Source: Actinomycetales bacterium (GTDB taxonomy: Bacteria > Actinomycetota > Actinomycetes > Actinomycetales > JAHECE01). From it: 38,270 bases of DNA. The position numbers and the translations under genes were made by a program. Location: NCBI GenBank assembly GCA_029975645.1, contig JARKOU010000274.1, positions 1 through 38,270 on the forward strand. Direction: 5' to 3'. Positions 6,509 through 38,270 of the stretch are shown one piece after another. The notes under the pieces were generated by a model. That model saw nothing but the letters and a program-made list of their open reading frames with translations. It was not told where the DNA came from and did no database searches. How positions within the stretch are numbered: position 1 is the stretch's first letter; each line of letters begins with the position of its first letter.

Positions 6509-6532
6509 ATGCGGGCGGAGGCCTCGGCGTGA
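6509..6532 (+). CDS. Putative 7-codon leader peptide before NhaA fusion
   Basis: ATG at 6509, six nt after a TAGGTT box, opens a frame encoding MRAEASA and ending at TGA 6530-6532. That TGA overlaps the GTG start of the antiporter (GTGA). The frame also contains the GGCGGAGG ribosome-binding sequence of the main gene. If real, it would couple translation of the antiporter to a leaderless mini-ORF. It is too short for statistical support; the arrangement is the only evidence. Confidence 0.3.
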
Positions 6533-20208: not shown

Positions 20209-20907
20209 TCAGCGCGGAGCGGCGATCTGCGCAGCGAGGTGCCCGCCGCCGTAGCCGTTGTCGATGTTGACCACGGCCACGCCGGGCGCGCACGAGTTGA
20301 GCATCGTGAGCAGCGCCGCGAGGCCCTCGAAGGCCGCGCCGTACCCCACCGAAGTGGGCACGGCCACCACCGGCGCGGGAACGAGTCCGGCCACCACGCT
20401 CGGCAGCGCCCCGTCCATTCCGGCCACGACGACGACGGCACTCGCCTCCCGCAGGAGGTCGAGCCGACCCAGAACGCGATGCAGGCCCGCGACCCCCACA
20501 TCCATCACCAACTCGGACCGACGGCCGAGGTAGGTCGCCGTGAGCAGGGCCTCCCGAGCGACCGGCAGGTCCGACGTCCCGGCGGCGGCAACGACCACGA
20601 GGCCGCCGGACGGCGGGGGCGGCTCCGGCGGCCACGCGACGAGCCGGGCGGCGGGGTCGTGGCGGGCGTCGGGGAGCGCCTCGAGCACAGCCCGGGCGTG
20701 GGCGTCATCCGCTCGCGTGAAGAGGGTGCGCCCGGCCCCGACTCCGAGTCGGGCGGCCTGCCCGATCTGGGCGGCGATGACGCGCACCTGGTCCGGGGTC
20801 TTGTGCTCGCAGTAGATGGCCTCCGGGTACCCCCGGCGTTTGGCGCGGTCGTGGTCCAGGTTGATCACGTCGATGAGTTCGGCGGGCGGGGACCAGTGCT
20901 CAGCCAC
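20209..20907 (-). CDS. larB: Nickel-pincer cofactor biosynthesis carboxylase LarB
   Basis: This 232-aa protein is LarB, the PurE/AIR-carboxylase-like enzyme. Known LarB carboxylates and hydrolyses nicotinic acid adenine dinucleotide to pyridinium-3,5-biscarboxylate mononucleotide, the first step of nickel-pincer nucleotide (NPN) synthesis. Visible family blocks are YPEAIYCEHKTPDQV near the N-terminus, a GTSDLPVAREA motif, VVVVAGMDGALPSVVAGLV, PTSVGYGAAFEGLAALLTML and the terminal NIDNGYGGG. Its GTG start overlaps the larE stop by 8 nt (GTGGCTGA). NPN is needed only by LarA-family enzymes, one of which lies at 33691. Confidence 0.93.
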   Translation of the reverse strand: MAEHWSPPAELIDVINLDHDRAKRRGYPEAIYCEHKTPDQVRVIAAQIGQAARLGVGAGRTLFTRADDAHARAVLEALPDARHDPAARLVAWPPEPPPPSGGLVVVAAAGTSDLPVAREALLTATYLGRRSELVMDVGVAGLHRVLGRLDLLREASAVVVVAGMDGALPSVVAGLVPAPVVAVPTSVGYGAAFEGLAALLTMLNSCAPGVAVVNIDNGYGGGHLAAQIAAPR

Positions 20908-21784
20908 GGACGGTCACCAGCGGAAGGGTGAAGGCGCCGGACTGGATGCCGGCGAGGTCGATGGCCACGAACCGGAACCCGGCCGCGCGCACCGCTCGCA
21001 GTACGTCCTCGCGCATCTCCGGCCCCACTGCCCGGGCGATATCCGCGCCGGGGAGCTCGATCCGGGCGACGTCGCCGTGATGGCGCACCCGCGAGTCCGC
21101 GAACCCCAAGGCCCGCAAGGCCGACTCCGCCTGGTCCACCTGCCTGAGCTTCTCCGGCGTGACCTCCTGGAAGTGCGGGATCCGGGAGGCGAGGCACGGC
21201 GCCGCGGGCTTGTCCGCGCACGGCAGCTCGAGCGCCCGGGCGACGGCGCGGACGTCCGCCTTGTGCAGGCCGGCGGCCGCCAGCGGTCGCAGCACCTCGT
21301 GGCGCGTGGCTGCCTCGGAGCCTGGGCGGTCGGGGCGGGCGGCGTCGTCGGCGTTCTCGCCATAGGCGATCGCGGAGAGGCCGAAGCGGAGCGCGACGTC
21401 GTCGGAGATCCGCGTGAACAGCTCGTCCTTGCAGTGGAAGCAGCGGTCAGGGCCATTGGCGCGGTAGGCGGGGTTCTCTCCCTCGTGGGTCGCCACCTCC
21501 ACGAGCGGGACGCCGATGTGGGCGGCGACGGCGTGCGCGGCCGCCCGTTCGTCCACGGCCAGGGACGGCGAGACACCGAGGATCGCGAGGACGCGGTCCG
21601 CTCCGAGTGCCCGGACGGCGAGCGCGAGCAGGGCGGAGGAGTCGACGCCGCCGGAGAACGCCACACCGAGACGCTCGGGAGATCCGATGGCGGCGGCCAC
21701 CCGCTCTTCCGTGCCCGCGGGGACGCCCGCGAGAGGGGCGAGGCCGCTCGGTCGCGGTGGCGGAGCAGTCTGGAGCATCGTCAT
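20900..21784 (-). CDS. larE: Sulfur transferase LarE for nickel-pincer cofactor
   Basis: This 294-aa PP-loop protein is LarE. Its SGGVDSS ATP-pyrophosphatase loop (about residues 44-50) adenylates the cofactor precursor. C197 in KPAAPCLASR occupies the place of the sacrificial cysteine that donates sulfur in single-cysteine LarE proteins (Lactiplantibacillus plantarum C176). A DRCFHCKDELF block is also typical. ATG at 21784 follows GAGGAGG; a second ATG is two codons in. larE leads a two-gene unit with larB. A copy of the island's 24-bp motif lies about 65 nt upstream. LarC, the nickel insertase also required, is not in the window. Confidence 0.93.
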   Translation of the reverse strand: MTMLQTAPPPRPSGLAPLAGVPAGTEERVAAAIGSPERLGVAFSGGVDSSALLALAVRALGADRVLAILGVSPSLAVDERAAAHAVAAHIGVPLVEVATHEGENPAYRANGPDRCFHCKDELFTRISDDVALRFGLSAIAYGENADDAARPDRPGSEAATRHEVLRPLAAAGLHKADVRAVARALELPCADKPAAPCLASRIPHFQEVTPEKLRQVDQAESALRALGFADSRVRHHGDVARIELPGADIARAVGPEMREDVLRAVRAAGFRFVAIDLAGIQSGAFTLPLVTVRG

Positions 21785-24695: not shown

Positions 24696-25889
24696 TCACA
24701 CCGCCCGCTGGGGGAACTTCCCCTCCTCGCGGATGCGGTCGTTGAGGAGGTGCAGGTACTCGTCCTCGTCGAAGTCCAGCGGCACCTCGCTCCCCAGCCA
24801 GTCCGAGAGGTGGATGGCGTTGGCCAGGCGGACGCCGTTGATGCCGTCGGCGCCGGGCGCGACCAGAGGCGTGCCGTCGATGACGTTGCGGGCGAAGTTC
24901 TCCAGGACGTCGGCGTGCTGCTGACCCCACGGCGACGGCGCCTCGAAGACCTCCTGCGTGTACAGGGTGTTGAGGTCCACCTGACCGGTGAACAGGCGCA
25001 TGACGTCGGCCATGTCCATGCCGGCGCTCAGTTCCGGCTCGGGCTTGACCAGGCGCGTTATGGTGGCGGTCTTGCTGTTCTCCACCACGATCTTGCCCTT
25101 GTCGCCGAGGATCTCGAACCGGTCCGTCCCGGCGATGTCCCAGGTGCACGTCACGAAGGTGCCGGTGGCGCCGTTGCCGTAGTCGACGACGGCGGTCACC
25201 TCGTTCTCCACGGCGATGTCCCGGAAGACCCCGTACCCCAACTTCGAGTAGACGGACTTCGGCACGCCGCAGATCCACTGCCACAGGTCCAGCTGGTGCG
25301 GGGCCTGGTTCACGAGGACGCCGCCGCCCTCGCCGCCCCAGGTGGCGCGCCAGTCGCTGGAGTCGTAGTAGCCCTGCGGACGCCACCACGTGGTGATGAT
25401 CCAGTTGGAGCGCACCACGGTGCCGATCTCACCGGACTCGACGATCTCCTTGAGCCGCTGGTAGAGCGGGTTCATCCGCTGGTTGAACATCATCCCGAAG
25501 GTGAGGTCCGGCTTGGTGGCGGCGAAGTCGATGAGCTCCTTGGCCTGCTTGGTGTAGACGCCGGCCGGCTTGTCGATGAGGGCGTGGATGCCGCGGCTCA
25601 GGGCCGCGATGCCCATCTCCGGGTGCAGGTAGTGCGGCACGGTGGTGATGACCGCGTCCACGTCGCCGCTCTCGAGCAACTCGACGTAGTCCTCGTAGAC
25701 GGGCACCTCCGGGTACGTCTGCGCGGCGAGGTCGCGCTTGGCCGGGTCGATGTCCGCGATGGCGCCGATCACCATGTGCGGCACCATGTCCTGGGTGATC
25801 AACTGGGCGTACATGCCTCCTTGCTGACCCAGCCCGATGATGCCGAGGCGGACCGCGTCCACCTGCGCCGATTGAGTCTCCTGCGCCAT
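24696..25889 (-). CDS. Gfo/Idh/MocA-family oxidoreductase
   Basis: This 397-aa protein has an N-terminal NAD(P)-binding Rossmann motif (LGIIGLGQQGGMYA) and a C-terminal Gfo/Idh/MocA domain. The usual EKP catalytic motif reads DKP (LIDKPAGVYTKQ), and the active-site histidine is in NQAPHQLDLWQW. Family members oxidise or reduce sugar hydroxyls, often at C3 of glycosides or inositol. ATG at 25889 follows GGAGA 6 nt upstream. It is divergent from a TIM-barrel protein across a region with two copies of the island motif. Substrate unknown. Confidence 0.87.
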   Translation of the reverse strand: MAQETQSAQVDAVRLGIIGLGQQGGMYAQLITQDMVPHMVIGAIADIDPAKRDLAAQTYPEVPVYEDYVELLESGDVDAVITTVPHYLHPEMGIAALSRGIHALIDKPAGVYTKQAKELIDFAATKPDLTFGMMFNQRMNPLYQRLKEIVESGEIGTVVRSNWIITTWWRPQGYYDSSDWRATWGGEGGGVLVNQAPHQLDLWQWICGVPKSVYSKLGYGVFRDIAVENEVTAVVDYGNGATGTFVTCTWDIAGTDRFEILGDKGKIVVENSKTATITRLVKPEPELSAGMDMADVMRLFTGQVDLNTLYTQEVFEAPSPWGQQHADVLENFARNVIDGTPLVAPGADGINGVRLANAIHLSDWLGSEVPLDFDEDEYLHLLNDRIREEGKFPQRAV

Positions 25890-26009
25890 TGATCGTCTCC
25901 TGTCCGTAAGGGGGTGCCGCGGGGGCGGCGCCCTCCCGTCCCGGGCTCGGGTGGGTGAGGGCGGCGTGCGCGTCGATTCGTCCCATTAGCGCAGCAGCCC
26001 CGCCCGCCC

Positions 26010-26033
26010 GCCCACGGGTTGCCTGGAGTTGCC
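26010..26033 (-). promoter_or_regulatory. Island operator-like motif facing the Gfo/Idh gene
   Basis: Minus strand reads GGCAA-CTCCA-GGCAA then CCCGTGGGC. It is oriented toward the gene starting at 25889 and ends 21 nt before a TAATGG box. Confidence 0.5.
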
Positions 26034-26063
26034 GCGTCCTGCCGACCGTGCGCCGTCGGCCCA

Positions 26064-26087
26064 GGCAACAGACGGCAAGCCCTGGCC
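26064..26087 (+). promoter_or_regulatory. Island operator-like motif facing the TIM-barrel operon
   Basis: Reads GGCAA-CAGAC-GGCAA then GCCCTGGCC. It ends 19 nt before a TACCGT -10-like box (26107-26112), covering the expected -35 site. Confidence 0.5.
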
Positions 26088-26203
26088 GGTGCGTGGACCG
26101 GCTTCCTACCGTCGAGGGACCGGCGCGCGGCGAGATGAGCCCAGCCCGACGACGAGCAGGCCGCGACGTGCGCCGGCTCCCCCGATACGGAGGAACGAAC
26201 GAG

Positions 26204-27031
26204 ATGTGGACCCTGTCCGGCTTCGCTGACGAGATCGACCCCGACCTCGAGACCCAGTGCCAGGTGCTGGACAGCCTCGGCATCCGCTACATCGAGTTCC
26301 GCAGCGCGTGGGACGTGAACGTCCTCGACCTGACGGACGAGCAGGTGGAGAGCGCCGCGACGATTCTCGCCGAGCACGGCATCCGGGTCTCCTCGATCGG
26401 CTCACCGATCGGCAAGATCAACATCGAGGACGACTTCGACGCCCACCTGGTCCGGATGGACCGCGCGGTGTGGGTGGCCCAGCGTCTCGGCGCCCCGTTC
26501 ATCCGCGTCTTCTCCTTCTTCCTCACAGCCGAGCAGAACCCCGCCGACCACCGCGACGAGGTCATCCGCCGCATGACCGCCCTCGCCGAGAAGGCGCTCG
26601 CCGGCGGCGTGGTGCTGCTGCACGAGAACGAGAAGGAGATCTTCGGCGACGTGCCCGAGCGTGTACTCGACATCGTCACCACCGTGGACTCCCCCGCCCT
26701 CCGCCTGGCCTGGGACGCCGCCAACTACGTCCAGTGCGGCGTCGTCCCCTTCCCCGAGGCGTACGAGGCGCTGCGGCCGTACACCGACTACATCCAGATC
26801 AAGGACGCCGTGCTCGCGACCGGCGAGGTGGTCCCCGCGGGCGAGGGCGACGGCCGTCTCCCCGAGACCATCCGGGCCCTGGCCGACGACGGCTTCGACG
26901 GCTTCTTCTCGATGGAACCCCACCTGGCGGTCGCGCACCACCTGGGCGGCTTCTCCGGCCCCGACAACTTCATCCGGGCCACGCGGGCCTTCACCGCGAT
27001 CCTCGACGACGCCGGCATCGCGTACCGCTGA
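26204..27031 (+). CDS. TIM-barrel sugar isomerase/epimerase-like protein
   Basis: This 275-aa protein belongs to the AP-endonuclease-2/xylose-isomerase-like TIM-barrel superfamily. Probable metal ligands are spaced along the barrel: E in LLHENEKEIF, D in LAWDAANY, H/K-bearing YIQIKDA and the terminal FFSMEPHL. Members isomerise or epimerise sugars, or cleave 3-keto-glycosides, with a divalent metal. ATG at 26204 follows GGAGG about 11 nt upstream. The next two genes (Gfo/Idh, second TIM barrel) are 25 and 40 nt away, so the three form an operon. Exact reaction unknown; it is not a mannonate dehydratase by sequence. Confidence 0.82.
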   Translation: MWTLSGFADEIDPDLETQCQVLDSLGIRYIEFRSAWDVNVLDLTDEQVESAATILAEHGIRVSSIGSPIGKINIEDDFDAHLVRMDRAVWVAQRLGAPFIRVFSFFLTAEQNPADHRDEVIRRMTALAEKALAGGVVLLHENEKEIFGDVPERVLDIVTTVDSPALRLAWDAANYVQCGVVPFPEAYEALRPYTDYIQIKDAVLATGEVVPAGEGDGRLPETIRALADDGFDGFFSMEPHLAVAHHLGGFSGPDNFIRATRAFTAILDDAGIAYR

Positions 27032-27056
27032 CGGAACGAGAGGACAGGGAACTCCG

Positions 27057-28142
27057 ATGAGGTTCGCCATCGTGGGCTGCGGGGTCATCGCCCCGACGCA
27101 CGCTCGCGCCCTGCAGCAACTCGCCGGCCACGCCCAGTTGGTCGCGTGCAGCGACATCGTGCCCGAGCGAGCCGCGGCGCTCGCCGCAGAGTTCGGCCTG
27201 ACGGCGCGCCCCTTCGAGGACGTCCTCGCCGATCAGAGCATCGACGCCATCAGCGTGTGCACGCCCAGCGGGCTGCACGCGGCGGTGGGGGTGCCCGCCC
27301 TCCTCGCCGGCAAGCACGTGATCGTCGAGAAGCCGATGGAGGTCACGCTCGAGGCGTGCGACCGGCTCCTCGAGGCGCAGCGCACCTCCGGCGCGACGCT
27401 CGGCGTGATCTGCCAGCACCGCTTCGATCCGGCATCCCAGGTGGTGAAGAAGGCCGTCGACGACGGCGACCTGGGTCGCCCGGTCCTGGCCGAGGCCCGG
27501 GTCCCGTGGTTCCGCTCGCAGGAGTACTACGACTCCGGCGACTGGCGCGGCACCTGGGAACTCGACGGCGGGGGTGCCCTGATGAACCAGGGCGTGCACA
27601 CGCTCGACCTGCTGCGCTGGACGTGCGGCCCGGTGACCAGCGTCTACGCACAGGCCCGCACCGCCGCGCACGAGCGGATCGAGGTCGAGGACGTCGTAGC
27701 TGCCACGTTGACGTTCGCGAACGGGGCGATCGGCACCGTCGTCGCATCGACCGCCGTCTACCCCGGATTCCCCGCACGGCTGGCCGTGCACGGGAGCGCG
27801 GGGAGCGCCGTCGTCGAGGGTGACCGCCTGGCGACGCTCGCCGTGGCCGGTCGGCCCACGATCGGCGGCGAGCAGGCGAACGCGCACGCGCTCCAGGTCG
27901 CGACCGGCGGAACCCGGGCGGCGACCTCGGCCGTCGAACAGGGCACGGCGGACGACACCCCCGGTCCCCTCGACCCGGCCGACGTCTGGGGCGAGGCGCA
28001 TCGCCGGCAACTGCTCGACTTCATCGACGCAGCCTCGAAGGGGCGGGCACCGCTCGTGGACGGAACCGAGGGCCGCAACGCCGTCGAACTCGTGCGGGCG
28101 ATCTACGCGTCTGCCGCGACTGGCAACGTCGTCCGGCTCTGA
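27057..28142 (+). CDS. Gfo/Idh/MocA-family oxidoreductase
   Basis: This 361-aa protein has a Rossmann motif at the very N-terminus (FAIVGCGVIAPTHARAL), the EKP motif (VIVEKPMEVT), a substrate-side CQHRFDP and the catalytic-histidine segment NQGVHTLDLLRW. It should be an NAD(P)-dependent sugar or sugar-acid dehydrogenase. It sits between two TIM-barrel proteins, an arrangement seen in loci that oxidise glycosides at C3 before isomerisation or lysis. ATG at 27057 has an AGGACAGGGA sequence upstream. It is a different subfamily from the protein at 24696. Confidence 0.87.
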   Translation: MRFAIVGCGVIAPTHARALQQLAGHAQLVACSDIVPERAAALAAEFGLTARPFEDVLADQSIDAISVCTPSGLHAAVGVPALLAGKHVIVEKPMEVTLEACDRLLEAQRTSGATLGVICQHRFDPASQVVKKAVDDGDLGRPVLAEARVPWFRSQEYYDSGDWRGTWELDGGGALMNQGVHTLDLLRWTCGPVTSVYAQARTAAHERIEVEDVVAATLTFANGAIGTVVASTAVYPGFPARLAVHGSAGSAVVEGDRLATLAVAGRPTIGGEQANAHALQVATGGTRAATSAVEQGTADDTPGPLDPADVWGEAHRRQLLDFIDAASKGRAPLVDGTEGRNAVELVRAIYASAATGNVVRL

Positions 28143-28182
28143 TCACCGAAACGACTTTCACACACAAGAGGAGACGAACACC

Positions 28183-29043
28183 ATGGCACGAATCGGAGTC
28201 CAGGCGAGCACGGTGAAGGGTGCATTCGCGGAACTGGGCACCTACGAGACCCTGCGCCGGGTCCGCGAGATCGGTTACCGCGCGATCGAGATCTCGCAGG
28301 TCTCGATGTCCGCCGAGAACGTGGCAGAGATGAAGCGCGCCCAGGAGGAGTTGGGCATCGAGATCGCGTCCCTGTCTGCGATGCTCACCGCTCCCCCGGG
28401 CTTGGCGTTCGAGTCCCTCGCGGATGACTACGCCAAGATCGTCGCGGATGCCCGGACGCTCGACACGTCGATCCTGCGAATCGGCATGCTGCCGTTCGAC
28501 GCGATGGGCTCCCTGGACGCGGTGGTCGGTTTCGCGAAGCAGGCGAACGACTACGCGCGGCGGCTGGCCGACGAGGGAATCGACCTCTATTACCACAACC
28601 ACCACATCGAATTCGCGAAATTCAATGGGCGCTACATGCTCGACATCATCGCCGACACGGCGCCGGAGGTCGGCCTCGAATTGGACGTCCACTGGATCCA
28701 GCGCGGCGGCGAGAACCCCGTGTCCGTGCTGAACGCCTACGACGGCCGGGTCCGGTTGGTCCACCTCAAGGACTACCGGGTCGCCACGCTGCCCCCGAGC
28801 GCGCTCGACCTCCTCGCGGCCGGCGACGCCGCCGGCTTCATGGCGGCGTTCACGGGCGTGGTGCAGTTCGCCGAGGTGGGCGAGGGCAACCTCGACTGGC
28901 CCGCGATCATCGCGCAGGCCGAGGCCAGCGGGGCGGAGTACCTGCTCGTGGAGCAGGACGACACCTACGGCCGCGACCCCTTCGAGTCGCTGCGCATCTC
29001 GCGCGACAACCTCGTCGCGATGGGGTACGAGTCCCGCTTCTGA
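28183..29043 (+). CDS. TIM-barrel sugar isomerase/3-keto-glycoside lyase-like protein
   Basis: This 286-aa TIM-barrel protein carries the YYHNHHIEFAKF segment, a LELDVHW strand, LVHLKDY and LLVEQDDTYG. Together these give the His/Asp/Glu metal site common in sugar-phosphate-isomerase-like proteins, including those found with Gfo/Idh partners in oxidative glycoside cleavage. ATG at 28183 follows AAGAGGAGA. It is the last gene of the plus-strand trio and is followed by hairpin terminators. The specific substrate is unknown; a role in releasing or reshaping uronic acids is an inference from the neighbouring uxaC operon. Confidence 0.82.
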   Translation: MARIGVQASTVKGAFAELGTYETLRRVREIGYRAIEISQVSMSAENVAEMKRAQEELGIEIASLSAMLTAPPGLAFESLADDYAKIVADARTLDTSILRIGMLPFDAMGSLDAVVGFAKQANDYARRLADEGIDLYYHNHHIEFAKFNGRYMLDIIADTAPEVGLELDVHWIQRGGENPVSVLNAYDGRVRLVHLKDYRVATLPPSALDLLAAGDAAGFMAAFTGVVQFAEVGEGNLDWPAIIAQAEASGAEYLLVEQDDTYGRDPFESLRISRDNLVAMGYESRF

Positions 29044-29228: not shown

Positions 29229-30779
29229 TCAGGCGAACAATCGCGCGACGTCGTCGTAGGCGGCGAGCAACCCGGGCACCGAGGCGCGCAGGCTGCGGTA
29301 GAGCGCCACCTCGGACGGGCTCGCCACCTCCGGCACCTCGACGGGCCGCGCCTCGGGCGGGGGCCCGAGCACCTCGACGCCGGAAGCCAGGTCGTCGACC
29401 CGGTCCAGGGCCAGGAGGCCGAGCGCGGCCACGCCCAGGGCGGAACCCTCAGCCCCACCGGTGACCGTGACCGGGCGGCCGAGCGCCCCGGCCAGCACGC
29501 GCCGCCACAGGACGGAACGGAACACGCCGCCCGTGGCGCGGACGGACCGCACCGGCTCGATGCGGTCGAGAGCCTCGACGATCGTGGACAGTTGCAGCGC
29601 CACGCCCTCGACGGCGGCCCGCACGAAGTGTCCGCGCGTGTGACCGATGCGGATGCCCAGATAGGCGCCGGCGAGGTCGGGGTCCCACAGGGGTGCCCGT
29701 TCGGCGAGGAGGTAGGGCAGCATGAGCAGGCCGTCGCTGCCGGGCGGAACGGCCTCGGCCAGGGCGAGCAGTTCCGCGTCGGGGGGCGACCCGTCGCCCA
29801 GGCCGCCGCCGAACACGTCGCCGCCCCACCGGACGGCCACGCCGCCCGTGCTGATCGCACCGCCGACGATCCACTGGGTGTCGGTCAGCGCGTAGCAGAA
29901 GAGCCGGCCGGCGGGGTCCAGCCGGGGCTTGTCGACCACCATGCGCACCGCGCCGCTCGTCCCGAGCGAGAGCCCCACGACGCCGGGTGCCATCGCGCCG
30001 GTGCCGATGTTCCCGAGCGGCCCATCCGCCGCGCCCACCACCACGGGCAGGCCGGCGGGCAGGCCCACGGCCTCGGCGATGTCCCGGGAAAGGGCCAGCG
30101 TCGCCGTCGTCGGCAGGACCGGTGGCAGCTGGTCGGCACGGATGCCGGCCAACTCGATCGCTCGAGGGTTCCAGTCGCGAGAGCCCAGGTCGAGCATCGC
30201 GGTGCCGGACGCCGAGGACAGCTCCGTGACCACCGTCCCGGTGAGGACGGCCAGGACGTAGTCCTTCAGGCCCGCCCACCAGCGCACCCGCGCGGTGAGC
30301 ACGGGCTCCCGGCGGCTGAACCACATGATCTTGGTCAGGGGCGTCATCGGGTGGATCGGCGTGCCGGAGGTCCGGTAGATCTCGGCGGCCAGATCGGAGG
30401 CCCGCAGGCCGCGAGCCTCGTCGATCGAGCGGGCGTCAGCCCACGTGATGAGCGAGGTGAGCGGCGAGAGATCGGCGTCGAGCCCGATCACGGCGTGCAT
30501 CGCCGTGCTCACCGCGATGCCGGCCACGCTCGCGCCGTCGACGGCGGCCACGGCCTCGGCGAGCGCCTCGACCACGGCGACCCGAATCGCCTCCGGGTCC
30601 TGGACCTGCCAGCCCGGTTGCGGCGCGAGCAGCGGGTACTCCCGGATCGCGGTGTGGCGCCGGCCCGTGCCGATCCCGAAGGCGACCACCTTGGTGGCCG
30701 TGGTCCCGACGTCGAGCCCGATCATGACCTCGCCGGAGGGTCCCCCCGGCGAGGTCTCGACATCGACCGCCCTGGTCAT
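29229..30779 (-). CDS. gntK: FGGY-family gluconokinase
   Basis: This 516-aa FGGY carbohydrate kinase phosphorylates gluconate to 6-phosphogluconate (assignment by subfamily). It has the N-terminal phosphate-binding GLDVGTTATKVVAF and the ATP-side LGTSGAVRMVV. Features I associate with FGGY gluconokinases rather than xylulokinases are LITWADARS, YRTSGTPIHPMTPLTKIMWF and SSASGTAMLDLGSRDWN, with RWWAGLKDYVLAVLTG between. The ATG at 30779 overlaps the stop of the upstream dehydrogenase (ATGA). It is the last gene of the uxaC operon, and gnd, whose enzyme uses the product, begins at 37876. Xylulokinase is the main alternative but fits less well. Confidence 0.85.
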   Translation of the reverse strand: MTRAVDVETSPGGPSGEVMIGLDVGTTATKVVAFGIGTGRRHTAIREYPLLAPQPGWQVQDPEAIRVAVVEALAEAVAAVDGASVAGIAVSTAMHAVIGLDADLSPLTSLITWADARSIDEARGLRASDLAAEIYRTSGTPIHPMTPLTKIMWFSRREPVLTARVRWWAGLKDYVLAVLTGTVVTELSSASGTAMLDLGSRDWNPRAIELAGIRADQLPPVLPTTATLALSRDIAEAVGLPAGLPVVVGAADGPLGNIGTGAMAPGVVGLSLGTSGAVRMVVDKPRLDPAGRLFCYALTDTQWIVGGAISTGGVAVRWGGDVFGGGLGDGSPPDAELLALAEAVPPGSDGLLMLPYLLAERAPLWDPDLAGAYLGIRIGHTRGHFVRAAVEGVALQLSTIVEALDRIEPVRSVRATGGVFRSVLWRRVLAGALGRPVTVTGGAEGSALGVAALGLLALDRVDDLASGVEVLGPPPEARPVEVPEVASPSEVALYRSLRASVPGLLAAYDDVARLFA

Positions 30780-32185
30780 GAGCGTGCCGCGCCGGCATGC
30801 GCAGTGAGGTCCTCGGCGTGCGCGACGACGGCGGCCCGCACCTGCTCGTCGGCGGCCAGGTCGGCACCGAGGAAGGCGAGGACCTTGTCCACCGACTCCT
30901 CGAGGGTGCCCTCCCCGAGCGCCGCGACCTCGGACGCGCGCGCGTCCTTGATCGGGGCTCCGAGGCCGCGCAGGTGGCAGACCCACGCCGCGACGGCGCG
31001 CGTCGCACCCACCGGCACCCGCCCCGCGGCGCGCTCGGCCCGCAGGGTCGGGACGATCCGCACCGGGATCTTCTGGGAGCCGTCCGCGGCGATCTGGGCA
31101 AGGACGTGGCGGATGTTGGGGTTCTCGAACCGCGACAGGAGCGCCTGCCGGTACGCCGCGACGTCCGCCTCGGGGAGGGTGAGGTGGCGGGACGCCTCGT
31201 CCCACCACTCCTCCACCCAGGCGCGGTTCACCGGGTCGTTGATGGCGTCGGCCACGGTCTCGTGACCGCGGATCGTGCCGGAGTACGCCAGCAGGGAGTG
31301 CGAGCCGTTGAGCAGCCACAACTTGCGCTGCTCGAAGGGCACCACGTCGTCCACGATGGTGGCGCCGGCGGCGTCCCATGCGGGCCGGCCCTTGGGGAAC
31401 TGCCCGGCGATGACCCACTCGCTGAACGGCTCGGTGGGCACCGGAGAGGCGTCCACCACGCCGAGCGCGGCAAGGACGGCCGCGCGGTGCTCGTCCGTGG
31501 TCGCCGGGGTGATGCGGTCGACCATGGTGGTCCCGAAGGCCACGTTCTGCGCGGCCCAGTCGGCCAGGGACGGGTCGACGGCGTCGATGAGATCCGCGAC
31601 CACGCGCTCGAGTGCCGGGCCGTTGTCGGGGAGGTTGTCGCAGGGAACGACGGCGATCGCCCCGGCTCCGGCGGCCCGGCGGGCGAGGTAGCCGGAGACG
31701 ATCCGGCCGGGCGCGGTGGCCGCAGCGGCCAGCGGGTCGGCCCTGAGCGCGGCGATGTCTGCCTGGACGTCCTCGCGAGAGCGGTCGAGGGCGCCGTCGG
31801 GAGCGCGCATGTAGCCCGCCTCCGTCACCGTCAGGGTGACGACGGCGAGGTCCGGGGAGGACCAGTAGCCGAGCCACGCCTCGTGGTCGGACGCCGCGTG
31901 CACGGCGGAGATGCTCGAGATGACGTCGAAGGAGTCCGTCGCGCCCCGGGTGATGAGGGTGTAGAGGCCGTCCTGCGGGTTCAGCGCGTTCGCCATCGCG
32001 GGCGAGCGGCCGGTGAAAGCGGCGATCCCCCAGTCCGCGGCGTCAGGAGCCTTGTCCGTGTACCAGGCCTGGTGGGCGCGGAAGAAGTTGCCGAGGCCCA
32101 CGTGCACGATCCGCACGGGTGCGGCCGGCCGGCCGTGGCCGGCGGCACGGGAGAGCCGGGGGGCGGGTGTGGTGGTGTCGCTCAC
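30776..32185 (-). CDS. uxuB: Mannitol-dehydrogenase-family fructuronate reductase
   Basis: This 469-aa polyol-specific long-chain dehydrogenase has an N-terminal NAD-binding RIVHVGLGNFFRAHQAWY and the catalytic K288-x4-N293-x2-H296 motif (KLWLLNGSHSLLAYSG). The family contains mannitol dehydrogenase, fructuronate reductase (UxuB) and tagaturonate reductase (UxaB). Position directly after uxaC and before gluconokinase favours reduction of D-fructuronate to D-mannonate with NAD(P)H. Tagaturonate reductase would give altronate, which does not lead to gluconokinase. GTG at 32185 overlaps the uxaC stop by 4 nt, so tight co-translation is likely. Confidence 0.82.
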   Translation of the reverse strand: MSDTTTPAPRLSRAAGHGRPAAPVRIVHVGLGNFFRAHQAWYTDKAPDAADWGIAAFTGRSPAMANALNPQDGLYTLITRGATDSFDVISSISAVHAASDHEAWLGYWSSPDLAVVTLTVTEAGYMRAPDGALDRSREDVQADIAALRADPLAAAATAPGRIVSGYLARRAAGAGAIAVVPCDNLPDNGPALERVVADLIDAVDPSLADWAAQNVAFGTTMVDRITPATTDEHRAAVLAALGVVDASPVPTEPFSEWVIAGQFPKGRPAWDAAGATIVDDVVPFEQRKLWLLNGSHSLLAYSGTIRGHETVADAINDPVNRAWVEEWWDEASRHLTLPEADVAAYRQALLSRFENPNIRHVLAQIAADGSQKIPVRIVPTLRAERAAGRVPVGATRAVAAWVCHLRGLGAPIKDARASEVAALGEGTLEESVDKVLAFLGADLAADEQVRAAVVAHAEDLTAHAGAARS

Positions 32186-33600
32186 AGCTTGAAGGCCTTC
32201 CTGGGGTTGGTGACGACCAGGTCGTAGGCCGTGTCGAGGGCCTCGTCCATCGTCAGGCGGTGGTCGGCCACGAGCTTCGCGAGGAAGCCCGAGTCCATCC
32301 GGCGGTTGGTGTCGTGGCGGGCGGGGATCGACAGGTACGCCCGGGTGTCGTCGATGAACCCCGAGGTCCGGGAGAAGCCCGCGGTCTCGGTGACCGCGCT
32401 GCGGTACCGGGTCATGGCCTCCGGCGAGTCGATGAACCACCAGGGGGCGCCCACGTACACCGACGGGTAGAAGCCGGCCAGCGGGGCGAGCTCGCGCGAG
32501 TACACGGTCTCGTCGATCGTGAAGAAGATGACCTGGAAGTTCGGGTTCGTCCCGAACGCCGAGAGCATGGGCTGGACGGCGTTGGTGAACTCCACCGCCA
32601 TCGGGATGTCCCCGCCCACGTCCGCGCCGTACCGCTCGAACGACGGCGCGTGATGGTTGCGGTAGACCGCCGGGTGCAGCGTCATCACCAGGCCGTCCTC
32701 GGAGGCCATCCTGGCCTGCTGGAACATGAAGTTCCGGCGGAGGGTGTGCCCGTCCTCGACCGTGATCTTCCCGGAGCGGGCGAGGGCGTACAGGCGCTCG
32801 GCCTCGGCGTCGCTGATCGGCTCGACGCGCGCATCACGATGGGAGTGATCGGTGGAGACCGCGCCGTTGGCCTTGAAGAAGGCGCGCCGGTTCTCCATCG
32901 CGGCCACCCAGCCGGCGTAGGTGCCGGTGTCGATCCCCGAGACCTCGGCGAGCGTGTCGACCAGGCCGTTCCAGGCAGGCGTGGCGGGCTCCAGGTACTT
33001 GTCCGGGCGGAAGGTCGGGGCGACCTTGCCGTCCCACGTCGGGTCGCCGGCCAGCTTGATGTGGTGGCGCAGGTCGTCGCACGGGTCGTCGGTCGTGGCG
33101 ATGAACTCGATCGGGAACGTCCGGTACAGCGCCCGCGGCAGGAACTCCGGGGTCGCGATCTTCTCGGCGATCGCGTCGTAGATCTCGTCGGCCGTCTCCG
33201 CTGAGGGCACGACGTCGATCCCGAAGATGTCGACGAGCTCGGACTCGAACCAGAACTTCACGGGCGTGCCGCGGTACGCCTTCCAGTGCGTGCACAGCAG
33301 ACGGAACGCGTTGCGCTTCTGCTCCGGCGAGAACTCCGCCTGCCCCACCCCGAGGTCGGCGAGCGAGACGCCGTGGGCGTGCATCATCCGGTTCACGTAG
33401 TGGTCGGGGGTGATGAGGAGCGAGGTGGGGTCCTCGAACGGGACGTCGTCGGCAAGCCACTGGGGCGGCACGTGCCCGTGGGGGGAGATGATCGGAAGGT
33501 CGCGCACGGCGTCGTACAGCTGCCGTGCGATCGGACGCACGGCGGGATCGGCCGGCAGCAGACGGTCGGGGTGAAGGGTCAGCGGGGTCATGGCGTTCAT
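32182..33600 (-). CDS. uxaC: Uronate (glucuronate) isomerase
   Basis: This 472-aa protein is uronate isomerase, interconverting D-glucuronate and D-fructuronate (or galacturonate and tagaturonate). The amidohydrolase-type metal site HxH is at H41/H43 (SPHGHVPP). Conserved family blocks include LLCTHWKAYRGTPVKFWFES, FIATTDDPCDD, FKANGAVSTDHSH and the C-terminal NPRKAF. Length matches the family. The ATG at 33600 gives MNAMTPL; the ATG at 33591 is equally possible, and neither has a clear ribosome-binding site. The start lies only 22 nt after a palindromic copy of the island motif, so repressor binding there would block this operon. First gene of uxaC-uxuB-gntK. Confidence 0.93.
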   Translation of the reverse strand: MNAMTPLTLHPDRLLPADPAVRPIARQLYDAVRDLPIISPHGHVPPQWLADDVPFEDPTSLLITPDHYVNRMMHAHGVSLADLGVGQAEFSPEQKRNAFRLLCTHWKAYRGTPVKFWFESELVDIFGIDVVPSAETADEIYDAIAEKIATPEFLPRALYRTFPIEFIATTDDPCDDLRHHIKLAGDPTWDGKVAPTFRPDKYLEPATPAWNGLVDTLAEVSGIDTGTYAGWVAAMENRRAFFKANGAVSTDHSHRDARVEPISDAEAERLYALARSGKITVEDGHTLRRNFMFQQARMASEDGLVMTLHPAVYRNHHAPSFERYGADVGGDIPMAVEFTNAVQPMLSAFGTNPNFQVIFFTIDETVYSRELAPLAGFYPSVYVGAPWWFIDSPEAMTRYRSAVTETAGFSRTSGFIDDTRAYLSIPARHDTNRRMDSGFLAKLVADHRLTMDEALDTAYDLVVTNPRKAFKL

Positions 33601-33622
33601 CGTCGGGGGGCCATCGGGGGGC

Positions 33623-33646
33623 GGCAATCGCTTGCCATCAGTTGCC
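33623..33646 (-). promoter_or_regulatory. Island operator-like motif between uxaC and larA-like gene
   Basis: Minus strand reads GGCAA-CTGAT-GGCAA then GCGATTGCC. The right part GGCAAGCGATTGCC is a CG-centred palindrome. It lies in the 90-bp divergent region and could control both directions. Confidence 0.6.
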
Positions 33647-33690
33647 GCGATCCCTTGCCGGATGCGGCCCGGCGGGGGCAAGGTGGCGGC

Positions 33691-34980
33691 ATGACCGCGA
33701 CTCTCGACGACGTCACCGCGCTGGCCCGTGCCGCCTCCCGGATCGGAGGACCCGACCAGGTTCTCACCACCGAGGAGGTGCGAGCCTTCATCCTCGAGTC
33801 CCTCGGCAACACCGATCTCGACGGCAAGAGCGTGTGCCTGCTCCTTCCGGACGCGACCCGCAGCACTCCCCTGCCGATGCTCCTCTCCTGTGTGCACGAA
33901 GCCCTCATCGGCCGCGTGAGCACCCTGACAGCGCTCATCGCCCTGGGTACCCACGCCGCGATGAGCGAGTCGGAACTCGCACACTGGATGGGCTACGAGG
34001 AACGCGGACTCGAGGCCACCTACCCAGGCCTGAGGGTTCTCCAGCACGAGTGGTGGGAGCCGGAGACGTTCGCCTCGCTGGGCACGATCAGCGCCGAGCG
34101 GGTCAAGGAACTGACCGAGGGACGGCTCGCCGTGCCGGCCGAGGTGGACCTCAACCGCGCCGTCGTCGAGAACGACGTCGCCCTCGTGATCGGCCCGGTC
34201 CTCCCCCACGAGGTGGTGGGCATGTCGGGCGGCAACAAGTACTTCTTCCCGGGCGTCGCCGGTCAGGACATCATCGACCTCACGCACTGGGTCGGTGCAC
34301 TGATCACGAGCGCGCAGATCATCGGCACGCGCGGCATCACGCCCGTCCGGGCCCTCATCAACGAGGCATCGGACCTGATCCCGAGCGAGAAGCTCGCGCT
34401 GTGCATCGTGCCGCAGGCGGGCTCCTCCTCCTTGCACGCCGTGACGTTCGGCACCACGGAGACCGCCTGGGCGTCGGCGGCCGAGGTCACTGCTGAGACG
34501 CACGTCCGCTACCTGGACGCCCCCGTCAAGCGCGTCGTCTCGATCATCCCGGAGAAGTACCCGGAGATCTGGACCGCGGCCAAGGGCTTCTACAAGCTCG
34601 AACCGGTGGTCGCCGACGGAGGCGAGGTCATCCTCTACGCACCCCACATCGCGGAGATCTCGTTCACCCACCACGAGATCTACGAGATCGGCTACCACTG
34701 CCGCGACTACTTCGTGAAGCAGTGGGACCGGTTCTCCGGCGTGCACTGGGGCGTGCTCGCGCACAGCACGCACCTGCGCGGCGCCGGCACCTACGACGAG
34801 GTCGAGGGCGAGAAGTGCCGCGTGGACGTCACTCTGGTCACGGCAATCCCCGAGGAGAAGGTGCGCGGGGCGAACCTCGGCTACATCGCCCCGGAGGACT
34901 TCGACCTGGCCGCGTACGAGGCCGACCCCGAGACCCTCGTGGTCCCCAACGCGGGCGAGGTGCTCTTCCGGCTGCGGTGA
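33691..34980 (+). CDS. LarA-family nickel-dependent racemase/epimerase (putative D-gluconate/D-mannonate 2-epimerase)
   Basis: This 429-aa protein belongs to the LarA (DUF2088) family of enzymes that use the nickel-pincer nucleotide to racemise or epimerise 2-hydroxy acids. Expected functional residues are present: DATRST (54-59), H88 in GTHAAM, H173, K183 in SGGNKYFFPG and H199. These align with L. plantarum LarA H108, H174, K184 (cofactor attachment) and H200 (nickel ligand). A LarA homologue with D-gluconate 2-epimerase activity has been reported. Here uxaC/uxuB would make mannonate and gntK/gnd would use gluconate, so mannonate-to-gluconate epimerisation is the best inference. ATG at 33691 follows AAGGTGG. 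Family call is firm; substrate is inferred. Confidence 0.88.
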   Translation: MTATLDDVTALARAASRIGGPDQVLTTEEVRAFILESLGNTDLDGKSVCLLLPDATRSTPLPMLLSCVHEALIGRVSTLTALIALGTHAAMSESELAHWMGYEERGLEATYPGLRVLQHEWWEPETFASLGTISAERVKELTEGRLAVPAEVDLNRAVVENDVALVIGPVLPHEVVGMSGGNKYFFPGVAGQDIIDLTHWVGALITSAQIIGTRGITPVRALINEASDLIPSEKLALCIVPQAGSSSLHAVTFGTTETAWASAAEVTAETHVRYLDAPVKRVVSIIPEKYPEIWTAAKGFYKLEPVVADGGEVILYAPHIAEISFTHHEIYEIGYHCRDYFVKQWDRFSGVHWGVLAHSTHLRGAGTYDEVEGEKCRVDVTLVTAIPEEKVRGANLGYIAPEDFDLAAYEADPETLVVPNAGEVLFRLR

Positions 34981-35025
34981 GGCCATCGGGCGCCGCCGGT
35001 CGCTCAGCGCACCAGACGGTTCCGC

Positions 35026-36039
35026 TCAACGGCGCCGGCGCGCTGTGGAACCGCGAACCACCAGGCGGGTGGGGAGGACGAACGCCTCGGCTGCGCGGGC
35101 GTGTGCGCCGTTGATGAGCGCCACGAGGTTGCGCACCGCCGTGATCCCCATCGCCCGCACCGGTGCCGCGACCGTGGTCAGCGGAGGTGTGACCAGGCGG
35201 GCGGCCATGATGTCGTCGAACCCGATCAGGCTCACGTCCTCCGGGACGCGCACCCCGTGCGCCACGAGGAACCGCAGAAGCCCGATCGCCATGAGGTCGT
35301 TGTAGGCGATGACCGCCGTCGGCGGGCCGTCCAGCATCTGCGCGCCGGCCTCGGCGCCACCCTCCGTGGTCGGCGCGAACGGCCCTATCCGGCGCGTGCT
35401 CAGGGCCAACTCGTGGCCGGCCTCGCGCAGGGCTCGCCACCGCATCCCATCCGCCCAGGAGGCCTCCGGACCGGCCACGTACGTGATGGCCTCGTGACCC
35501 AGCTCCCCCAGGTGCTCGGCCGCGCGGCGCATCCCCCGCGGGTTGTCCGTCACCACGCTCGGCACACCCATGAGGTCGCGGTTGAGCACCACCATCGGCT
35601 TCTGCTTGGCGATCACCCGCAGCGTGGAGTCGGACATCCGCGAACTGCCGATCACGATGCCCTCGACGGCGGGTAGCACCCGCTCGAGCGACTCCCTCTC
35701 CACCTGGTCCGACTCGCGCGCATCGGCGAGGAGCACCGTGTAATCCGCCTCCGACGCCGCGATCTGCGCTCCCCGGATCAACTCGGAGTAGAAGGGATTC
35801 GTCACGTCCGAGACCATCACCGCGAGCATCTTGGTCCTGGAGGTCGAGAGCGCCCGCGCCAGGGGGTTGGCGCGGTAGCCGAGCCGGGCGGCCACCTCCC
35901 GGATGTGGGCCGCGGTGTCCGCGTTGACGCGCCCGGGCCTCGCGAAGGTGCGCGAGACGGTCGACGGCGCAACACCGGCCTCGCGTGCGACGTCGTAGAT
36001 GGTGGGGGCTGCCGGCCGCCGCGTGGGCTCGTCCGTCAT
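35026..36039 (-). CDS. LacI-family transcriptional regulator of the uronate island
   Basis: This 337-aa regulator has a canonical LacI HTH (TIYDVAREAGVAPSTVSRTF, 13-32) and a normal hinge helix (N58-P-L-A-R-A-L64). The sugar-binding domain begins at about 70 (LAVMVSDVTNPFYSEL). It lies between the larA-like gene and the GPH transporter and is divergent from the latter. A palindromic copy of the island motif (36061-36084) covers the expected -35 region of its own promoter, so autorepression is likely. TAGCCT sits 6 nt before the ATG at 36039, suggesting a leaderless mRNA. The effector is probably a pathway sugar acid (inference). Confidence 0.9.
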   Translation of the reverse strand: MTDEPTRRPAAPTIYDVAREAGVAPSTVSRTFARPGRVNADTAAHIREVAARLGYRANPLARALSTSRTKMLAVMVSDVTNPFYSELIRGAQIAASEADYTVLLADARESDQVERESLERVLPAVEGIVIGSSRMSDSTLRVIAKQKPMVVLNRDLMGVPSVVTDNPRGMRRAAEHLGELGHEAITYVAGPEASWADGMRWRALREAGHELALSTRRIGPFAPTTEGGAEAGAQMLDGPPTAVIAYNDLMAIGLLRFLVAHGVRVPEDVSLIGFDDIMAARLVTPPLTTVAAPVRAMGITAVRNLVALINGAHARAAEAFVLPTRLVVRGSTARRRR

Positions 36040-36045
36040 ACGGCC

Positions 36046-36051
36046 AGGCTA
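36046..36051 (-). promoter_or_regulatory. -10 box TAGCCT for leaderless lacI-type transcript
   Basis: On the minus strand TAGCCT is followed by exactly 6 nt and the ATG at 36039. An operator-like palindrome lies 9 nt upstream of the box. Confidence 0.55.
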
Positions 36052-36060
36052 GGGCGGCCG

Positions 36061-36084
36061 GACAACACATGGCAACCGATTGTC
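36061..36084 (+). promoter_or_regulatory. Island operator-like motif overlapping lacI promoter
   Basis: Reads GACAA-CACAT-GGCAA then CCGATTGTC. The palindrome TGGCAACCGATTGTCA (36070-36085) is a near-perfect CG-centred LacI-type operator. It is the best copy in the window. Confidence 0.65.
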
Positions 36085-36164
36085 ATCAGGGTGCGCGGAC
36101 TGCGGGAATAGAGGCGTCATCGCGGCCCGCCCCATGGGGTCGCACCCAGCAAGCAGCCCCATCG

Positions 36165-36188
36165 GACAACAAAGAGCAACCGGTAGCC
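36165..36188 (+). promoter_or_regulatory. Island operator-like motif upstream of the GPH transporter
   Basis: Reads GACAA-CAAAG-AGCAA then CCGGTAGCC, about 85 nt before the transporter ATG. The right half-site is imperfect, and no clear TANNNT box follows. Confidence 0.5.
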
Positions 36189-36273
36189 GCTCGAGACGAG
36201 CCACTGACTCAATGGGCGCCGACACCACCCGACCACCAGGCCCAGAGCCTGACACCCACAGGAGATCACACTC

Positions 36274-37725
36274 ATGTCCGTCCTGACGAGACCAGGGCCA
36301 GCCGCGGCGACCACGCCCAAGCGGCTCGGCCTGAAGCAGTACTCCGGCTACGCCGCCGGCGACGCCGCCAACAACCTGGCCTTCTCCATGGCGGGTTCGT
36401 TCCTCCTCCTCTACTACACCAACGTCGTCGGCCTCGAGGCAGCCCCGCTGGGCACGATGTTCCTGCTCATCCGGTTCTGGGACGCCCTCGCCGACCTCGG
36501 GGTCGGGCGCGCCGTCGACGGCAAGAAGCCGGGCAGGCTGGGCAAGTTCCGGCCGTTCATCCTCTACTTCTCGCTGCCGCTCCTGATCTCGAGCATGATG
36601 ATCTTCTCGGCGAACACCTTCTTCCCGGGGATGAGCGCCACGCAGGGCCTGATCTACGCATACATCACGTACGCCGTGATGGGCACGCTCTACAGCCTGG
36701 TCAACATCCCCTACGGCTCGATCGCCCCCGCGATGACCCAGGTCCCCACCGAGCGGGCCAAGCTCGCCACGTGGCGCGTCTACGGCTCGAACATCACCAT
36801 CCTCATGCTGTCCTTCGTGGTGGCGCCGCAGATCAAGAAGTTCGTCGGCGACCCGACCGGCCTGCAGCGGTCCCTGTTCATCACCACGGCGATCTTCGTG
36901 GTGGTCGGCATGGCCCTGTACCTCTACACGGTGGCGACCGTGAAGGAGCGGGTGCACCGCGACGTCGCCGCGCCGAGCATGAAGGAAAGCTTCCGCACGC
37001 TGACCCACAACAAGCCGCTGCTCTGGCTGTGCGTCGGCAGCCTGATGTTCCTCACCGGCCTCACCGCTCTCGGGACGATGGCGCCCTACTACGCGATCTA
37101 CGTCCTCAATGACCCGCAGTACATCGCGTGGAACGCCGTCGCCCAGGCGGTCGGTACGTTCCTCGTCGCCGCCTTCATCCCCCTCATCGTCCGCAAGTTC
37201 GGCAAGAAGAACGGCTACATCTCGCTGGGCATCGTCGGCGTCATCGCCGGTGCGATCCTCACGCTCGCCCCTCGGGAGACGCCGATGGTCGCGGTGATCG
37301 GCTTCTTCGTCCTCGGCATCGGCATGGGTGGCGTCAACACCCTCATGTGGGCGCTCGAAGGGGACACTGTGGAGTACGGCGAGTGGAAGACCGGCATCCG
37401 CACGGAGGGCACCACGTACGCGCTGTTCTCCTTCACCCGCAAGATGGGACAGGCCCTCGGCGGCGCCTTCGGCGCCTACGCCCTCGGCTGGGTCGCATTC
37501 AACTCGCAGGCAGCCAAGGACGGCGTGGCCCAGTCCGCCGGCCCGATCGACGGCCTCCAGCAGGCGGCCGGCGCGCTGTCCGGCGGCGTCATCCTCATCT
37601 CCCTGCTGGTCATGGCCTTCTACCCGCTGACGGAGAAGGTGTTCAAGCAGATCGTCGGTGAGATCGCCGCTCGCCGCGCCGAGCGCGAGGCCACCACGTC
37701 CCTCGAGCCCCTCGTCAAGGCGTAA
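36274..37725 (+). CDS. GPH-family glucuronide:cation symporter
   Basis: This 483-aa protein has about 12 helices and belongs to the glycoside-pentoside-hexuronide:cation symporters, closest by eye to UidB-type glucuronide carriers. Signatures are the N-terminal YSGYAAGDAANNLAFSM, RFWDALADLGVGRAVDG, and WALEGDTVEYGEWKTGIRTE followed by SFTRKMGQALGG. It likely imports glucuronides or related uronides with H+ or Na+. The ATG has AGGAGAT about 8 nt upstream. It is divergent from the LacI regulator, with two island motifs between them. No beta-glucuronidase gene is in the window. A strong hairpin follows, before gnd. Confidence 0.88.
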   Translation: MSVLTRPGPAAATTPKRLGLKQYSGYAAGDAANNLAFSMAGSFLLLYYTNVVGLEAAPLGTMFLLIRFWDALADLGVGRAVDGKKPGRLGKFRPFILYFSLPLLISSMMIFSANTFFPGMSATQGLIYAYITYAVMGTLYSLVNIPYGSIAPAMTQVPTERAKLATWRVYGSNITILMLSFVVAPQIKKFVGDPTGLQRSLFITTAIFVVVGMALYLYTVATVKERVHRDVAAPSMKESFRTLTHNKPLLWLCVGSLMFLTGLTALGTMAPYYAIYVLNDPQYIAWNAVAQAVGTFLVAAFIPLIVRKFGKKNGYISLGIVGVIAGAILTLAPRETPMVAVIGFFVLGIGMGGVNTLMWALEGDTVEYGEWKTGIRTEGTTYALFSFTRKMGQALGGAFGAYALGWVAFNSQAAKDGVAQSAGPIDGLQQAAGALSGGVILISLLVMAFYPLTEKVFKQIVGEIAARRAEREATTSLEPLVKA

Positions 37726-37760
37726 CGAGTTCCTGACGACCACCGGCCGACACCCCCGAT

Positions 37761-37798
37761 GTGATGCCCCGTGGTCCTGCCGGACCACGGGGCGTCAC
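37761..37798. terminator. Hairpin terminator or attenuator before gnd
   Basis: A 17-bp inverted repeat with one T-G pair (37761-37777 with 37782-37798) has a TGCC loop, 35 nt after the transporter stop. No T-tract. It probably ends the transporter transcript or limits read-through into gnd. Confidence 0.8.
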
Positions 37799-37875
37799 CA
37801 CTTCCGGCCCCGACACCACACGATCCCCCTGCTACCGCAACCCGCCCGCTACTGCACCAAGGAAGAGTGACTGGA

Positions 37876-38270
37876 ATGACTACCGACACCATCCCCACCC
37901 CCAGCGACAGCCCCGTCGCGACCGCTCAGGTCGGCGTTGTCGGCTTGGCGGTAATGGGGAGCAATCTGGCCCGGAATTTCGCCAGCCGCGGGTACACCGT
38001 GGCGGTGTTCAACCGCAGCCCGGCCCGCACGAGCGCGATGATGGCCGCGCACGGGGCGGAGGGCGCGTTCGTGCCCGCGACGCGGTTGGAGGACTTCGTC
38101 GCCAGCCTGGAGCGGCCCCGCCGGATCATCATGATGGTCCAGGCCGGCGCCGCGACCGACGCCACGATCGACTCCCTCGTCCCCCTGCTGGAGCCGGGTG
38201 ACATCCTGGTCGACGGCGGCAACGCCCACTTCCCCGACACCCGCCGCCGCGAGGCCGCCCTCCGGGCGGT
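37876..38270 (+). CDS. gnd: 6-phosphogluconate dehydrogenase, 5' part (runs off the window)
   Basis: The first ~131 residues show the N-terminal NADP domain of decarboxylating 6-phosphogluconate dehydrogenase. The fingerprint is VGVVGLAVMGSNLARNFASRGY, then VAVFNRSPARTS, RRIIMMVQAG and the substrate-binding VDGGNAHFPDT. The enzyme converts 6-phosphogluconate to ribulose 5-phosphate and CO2, the step after gluconokinase. ATG at 37876 follows AGGAAGAG at a somewhat long distance. Its place at the end of the island suggests a pathway-dedicated copy, though it could be the only gnd of the organism. Confidence 0.93.
   Translation, partial: MTTDTIPTPSDSPVATAQVGVVGLAVMGSNLARNFASRGYTVAVFNRSPARTSAMMAAHGAEGAFVPATRLEDFVASLERPRRIIMMVQAGAATDATIDSLVPLLEPGDILVDGGNAHFPDTRRREAALRA

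Follow-up and report, generated by a model that had tools for sequence, protein, structure and literature searches.

How does a bacterium degrade glucuronate when its genes for the first two steps of the pathway stand beside genes for a gluconate kinase and a LarA-family protein? The question is raised by a gene cluster on contig JARKOU010000274.1 (C248 in our numbering) of an Actinomycetales draft genome (GCA_029975645.1; 3.14 Mb, 88.7% complete). The entire contig, 38,270 nucleotides, is the window analyzed here. Three genes, encoding the glucuronate isomerase UxaC, a UxuB-like fructuronate reductase, and a GntK-like FGGY kinase, are joined by overlaps of exactly 4 nt each (uxuB/uxaC and gntK/uxuB). 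A larA gene diverges from uxaC across 90 bp, and genes for a LacI-family regulator, a GPH-family carrier, and a 6-phosphogluconate dehydrogenase (gnd, truncated at the end of the contig) come next. An earlier note, made from the sequence alone, had described the overlaps, the divergent larA, and the carrier and gnd beyond it; the coordinates bear this out (Table 1). We consider it likely that this LacI-regulated cluster feeds glucuronate into the pentose phosphate pathway through a nickel-dependent epimerase, in place of the mannonate dehydratase UxuA.

In the proposed route, the GPH symporter would import glucuronate or a glucuronide, UxaC would convert glucuronate to fructuronate, and UxuB would convert fructuronate to D-mannonate. 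The LarA homologue, equipped with the nickel-pincer nucleotide (NPN) made by LarB, LarE, and LarC, would then invert C2 via transient hydride transfer, turning D-mannonate into D-gluconate. The FGGY kinase would yield 6-phosphogluconate, and Gnd would yield ribulose 5-phosphate and CO2. One reduced nicotinamide would be used and one regained, making the route redox-neutral. The first two steps are shared with the canonical Ashwell pathway (UxaC-UxuB-UxuA-KdgK-Eda); the difference is that the epimerase would take the place of UxuA and that UxuA and Eda were not found in this genome. The opposite direction, with LarA turning gluconate into mannonate, was ruled out because no mannonate dehydratase was found.

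The LarA homologue and its predicted substrate

The earlier note had proposed that the LarA homologue links mannonate to gluconate. Four independent lines of evidence now argue for a D-mannonate/D-gluconate 2-epimerase (GntE): an active-site signature together with the nearest solved relative, operon context, mutual exclusion with UxuA, and a shared LacI operator. Judged by sequence and a structural model, the protein is a member of the LarA superfamily with NPN-binding and catalytic residues and a LarA fold. The reference positions, in LarA numbering, are R75, K184, and H200 for NPN binding and D72, H108, H174, and K298 for catalysis; the window protein has the catalytic and NPN residues as D54, R57, H88, H173, K183, H199, and K298, and all are invariant in 18 orthologues. 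Equally invariant are E174, V175, A357, and H358, which reproduce the signature of D-gluconate 2-epimerases: E, V, A, H at LarA positions F175, F176, W358, and T359 (PMC11770544).

The closest solved relative by sequence is 4NAR, with 35% identity over 376 aa (E 1.4e-58; next match 4e-7). This is GntE2 of Thermotoga maritima, an assayed gluconate 2-epimerase that converts D-mannonate to D-gluconate (PMC7583248). All chains that the AlphaFold model (predicted local distance difference test score 85) matches at E<=0.001 belong to the LarA family; the template modeling (TM) score is 0.84 to 4NAR and about 0.71 or less to lactate racemase structures. Among natural relatives, the LarA of Cellulomonas aerilata is 75% identical. 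This clade falls outside the existing NCBIfam models, of which the group-18 "putative hexonate epimerase" model (NPN_18_hexonate, NF052594) comes closest, at a third of its cut-off; membership in that family was ruled out (160.5 bits vs. 500). A rooted tree that included 4NAR and group 18 had long branches; comparisons were made on identities and residue columns, with one row (L070) left out.

The cofactor can be accounted for. The larB and larE genes, which the earlier note had named, both lie within the window with scores above cut-off, about 12 kb upstream of the larA cluster, and larC was found on a separate contig (C155). With all three genes present, NPN synthesis is complete and the cofactor could be made.

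Conserved neighborhood, operators, and the distribution of UxuA

The cluster arrangement recurs across dozens of genera. We compared 80 named actinobacterial loci (Cellulomonas, Streptomyces, Knoellia, Blastococcus, Actinoplanes, Nocardia, and others), 25 of which are shorter than 18 kb, so that neighbor counts are minima. This is the co-occurrence survey that the earlier note had called for: within 10 kb of larA stand uxuB at no fewer than 52 loci, uxaC at 49 or more, lacI at 40 or more, larE/larB at 29 or more, gntK at 16 or more, and gnd at 14 or more. UxuA was found within 10 kb at none of the 80. At 37 loci uxaC is immediately divergent from larA, and lacI adjoins larA in many genomes. 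Some loci are arranged otherwise: in L037 (genome G323) larA is accompanied by larE-larB only and does not adjoin uxaC, and in G262 (L042/L058) and L079 it stands with uxuB (with gntK too in L042), uxaC being absent within 10 kb or elsewhere. Among plasmids, a search returned Embleya megaplasmids and two distant marine matches, and nothing else.

A LacI-type palindrome is common to the uxaC/larA and lacI/carrier gaps of the window. With up to 3 mismatches, the operator occurs in 20 of the 37 divergent uxaC/larA gaps, compared with 1.3% of shuffled gaps. Its presence in both gaps and its recurrence elsewhere suggest that larA, the carrier gene, and the uxaC operon probably share a single LacI regulator.

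UxuA (PF03786) had no match in the whole draft genome, and neither had Eda (PF01081); KdgK was not searched for. The MR_MLE/enolase superfamily, which includes other mannonate dehydratases, was screened as well; no enolase-type mannonate dehydratase scored above cut-off in the genome, where a single sub-threshold MR_MLE fragment was the only match. Because the genome is a draft and its family holds only two genomes, we surveyed 396 genomes of the order. Window-type LarA is present in 44, UxaC in 172, and UxuA above cut-off in 57; LarA and UxuA co-occur in none. Of the 44 LarA genomes, 42 carry UxaC, and 38 reach a completeness of 99% or more. Among uxaC carriers, UxuA occurs in 0 of 42 with LarA versus 49 of 130 without it (Fisher p = 8e-8). 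Counted by genus (tallied by hand), the sole control for relatedness and one that is not tree-based, the exclusion is 0/17 vs. 20/43 (p = 5e-4). The pattern does not reflect a single split, since LarA and UxuA types both occur within the same families, in separate genera. A class-wide sample agrees (11 LarA, 9 UxuA, overlap 0) and adds no significance. In UxuA-bearing genomes, uxaC often adjoins uxuA and eda (e.g., G213, G108, G144).

The earlier note had listed the classical genes as missing from the window. For UxuA and Eda this extends to the whole draft genome, but the absence of Eda is no general mark of the system: an Eda-family gene occurs in 229 of the 396 genomes, including 27 of the 44 LarA carriers. 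Eda was dropped as a discriminating marker for this reason; UxuA discriminates.

A second LarA clade occupies the same operon position. Group-18 LarAs in other genera, of another family, are divergent from uxaC-uxuB(-gntK) and stand beside lacI, larE, and larB (L062-L067; e.g., L063:8695-10152, minus strand). They resemble the window LarA in the E,V,A,H signature and differ from it in overall sequence (25-27% identity), the window protein falling far under the 500-bit cut-off of the group. UxuA was not found in the 6 group-18 genomes with the divergent arrangement (G066, G136, G224, G255, G277, G377); group 18 overall is not exclusive with UxuA, which 6 of its 19 genomes carry. A second clade in the same position provides independent support for the linking role of LarA, and for group 18 itself, whose function is described only as putative, gene context points to mannonate/gluconate as the substrate too.

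Known systems and rival explanations

Both the route and the epimerase have been published before, in work on Thermotoga and on LarA groups 19/20 (PMC7583248, PMC3750489, PMC6978723). For galacturonate in T. maritima, Rodionova 2012 (as cited in PMC6978723 and PMC7583248) proposed a path from mannonate through gluconate to the pentose phosphate pathway; in this species gnd-uxaRED-gntEK forms a single regulon (PMC3750489). GntE activity has been shown for the T. maritima and Corynebacterium glutamicum enzymes (PMC7583248, Desguin 2020) and for a Phytophthora enzyme (PMC11770544, Desguin 2024). The gluconate 2-epimerase precedent mentioned in the earlier note is real, and the locus is less novel than that note had rated it. 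The T. maritima system is alike in using a LarA homologue for mannonate to gluconate, followed by GntK and Gnd, with its genes under one regulator; it differs in starting from galacturonate via UxaE, in having a GntR-type regulator, and in keeping UxuA and an Eda-family aldolase (as seen in the control genome). LarA homologue (LarAH) group 19, with GntE1 of C. glutamicum, is also actinobacterial, has a uronic-acid context, and shows gluconate 2-epimerase activity (PMC7583248). We found no description of an actinobacterial glucuronate cluster in the open-access literature. What appears to be new is the actinobacterial glucuronate version, the pattern of UxuA replacement, and the proposal of a native function, open to testing, for LarA groups whose substrates are uncertain.

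Several observations weigh against our interpretation. LarA, UxuB, and the kinase all score under the cut-offs of the NCBIfam equivalog models. For many LarAs of Kribbella and Actinoplanes, no uxaC stands within 10 kb. The control for relatedness in the exclusion statistics stops at genus counts. A further 68 uxaC genomes in the order survey carry none of window-type LarA, group-18 LarA, and UxuA, so other routes exist. Finally, GntE1 of C. glutamicum has a Michaelis constant (KM) of 120 mM for mannonate, and its authors doubted that mannonate is the native substrate, suspecting, for example, glucarate (PMC7583248).

This last point leads to a different reading, in which LarA acts on another uronate-related acid, such as D-glucarate/D-mannarate, with the gluconokinase and Gnd handling gluconate taken up from outside. 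Desguin 2020 suggested glucarate/mannarate for group 19, in keeping with the high KM. We regard this reading as unlikely. The cluster encodes exactly the enzymes that make mannonate and those that consume gluconate, NCBIfam and Pfam scans found no aldarate dehydratase or aldolase among its proteins, and the strict LarA/UxuA exclusion makes sense only with mannonate as the LarA substrate. In the C. glutamicum control genome, moreover, UxaC and LarC were found and UxuA and Eda were not, which favors mannonate as the substrate.

The order of the steps could also be reversed, with the FGGY kinase acting first to give 6-phosphomannonate and LarA, or an unknown epimerase, forming 6-phosphogluconate. 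The model is the galacturonate-phosphoketolase route of Lactobacillus suebicus, which likewise joins uronate isomerase steps to 6-phosphogluconate and is redox-neutral; it differs in placing the kinase before a 6-phosphomannonate epimerase, both activities having been measured in extracts and their genes not identified (PMC6978723). We hold this to be more doubtful still: LarA relatives with the same signature use unphosphorylated mannonate (PMC7583248, PMC11770544), and the window kinase is closest to gluconate kinases. Its best match among solved proteins is the gluconate kinase 3GBT (E 7e-83; second 2e-50), and its best model is gntK_FGGY, at 376 bits below a cut-off of about 648, ahead of xylulokinase at 277. 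Least credible to us is that a conventional 2-keto-3-deoxygluconate route is also present, its genes having been missed. The draft quality of the genome and the lack of a search for KdgK leave room for it; the 38 nearly complete LarA-bearing genomes, also without UxuA, speak against it.

We return to LarA as a predicted D-mannonate/D-gluconate 2-epimerase. The odds seem to us balanced for the wider proposal that GntE replaced UxuA across much of Actinomycetota, making growth on glucuronate nickel-dependent, and that two distant LarA clades were recruited, with mannonate/gluconate native to both. LarA groups whose native substrate is open would gain a specific role that can be tested genetically, and many actinobacteria are predicted to require nickel for glucuronate use. 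Annotation by the standard scheme, built around UxuA, KdgK, and Eda, is predicted to miscall their glucuronate pathway as incomplete. A redox-neutral route to ribulose 5-phosphate would also be of interest for engineering, as has been said of the related L. suebicus route (PMC6978723).

Cluster genes and neighboring features

Table 1. Features of the cluster and its surroundings, with window coordinates.
Feature	Position	Strand	Basis or remark
larB, first NPN-synthesis enzyme, overlaps larE	20209..20907	-	NF033503, 269 bits vs. 175 cut-off
larE, sulfur transferase of NPN synthesis	20900..21784	-	TIGR00268, 272 bits vs. 150 cut-off
Gfo/Idh/MocA oxidoreductases	24696-25889; 27057-28142	-; +	Pfam/NCBIfam
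TIM-barrel isomerase-like proteins	26204-27031; 28183-29043	+; +	Pfam/NCBIfam; accessory module 24696..29043
gntK-like FGGY gluconokinase	29229..30779	-	NCBIfam best model gntK_FGGY (TIGR01314)
uxuB-like fructuronate reductase / D-mannonate oxidoreductase	30776..32185	-	GTG start; 4-nt overlaps on both sides
uxaC, glucuronate isomerase	32182..33600	-	NF002794, 542 bits vs. 387 cut-off; PF02614
LacI-type operator CGGCAATCGCTTGCCA, uxaC/larA gap	33622..33637	.	1 mismatch to TGRCAANCGNTTGNCA
larA, LarA-family protein, predicted NPN-dependent D-mannonate/D-gluconate 2-epimerase (GntE)	33691..34980	+	Lar_N, 68 bits (Pfam)
LacI-family regulator of the cluster	35026..36039	-	LacI and Peripla_BP_3 domains
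LacI-type operator TGGCAACCGATTGTCA, lacI/carrier gap	36070..36085	.	0 mismatches
GPH-family glucuronide:cation symporter	36274..37725	+	TIGR00792, 362 bits vs. 231 cut-off
17-bp perfect hairpin, 4-nt loop, between carrier gene and gnd	37761..37798 (ends approximate)	+	RNA fold z = -3.4
gnd, NADP-type 6-phosphogluconate dehydrogenase, truncated by contig end	37876..38270	+	PRK09287, 163 bits

Family scans bear out each gene name, although the UxuB-like protein and the kinase stay below their equivalog cut-offs with the expected model ranked first. For the UxuB-like protein, the fructuronate reductase model PRK15037 (270 bits against a cut-off of 603) leads arabinitol 4-dehydrogenase (260) and tagaturonate reductase (178), all sub-cut-off. 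The carrier also reaches 463 bits with the PRK09848 glucuronide transporter model, below its cut-off of 528. For the truncated gnd, the score in the table compares with 147 bits for TIGR00873 and 71 for the NAD type. The strong hairpin upstream of gnd is terminator-like but has no T run, and gnd may form a separate transcript; it is nonetheless found in the cluster at other loci.

Next to the cluster lies the accessory module of Gfo/Idh/MocA oxidoreductases and TIM-barrel proteins. This putative module may release glucuronate from glucuronides via C3 oxidation and not by hydrolysis. Homologues of both protein types recur by uxaC/larA in other genera (L041, L044, L047, L049, L050, L051). Further upstream, a second LacI-family regulator gene (22652-23674) adjoins that of an AEC-type transporter (23720-24643), and at 6529-8421 an NhaA Na+/H+ antiporter is fused in one frame to a C-terminal thioredoxin-like domain.

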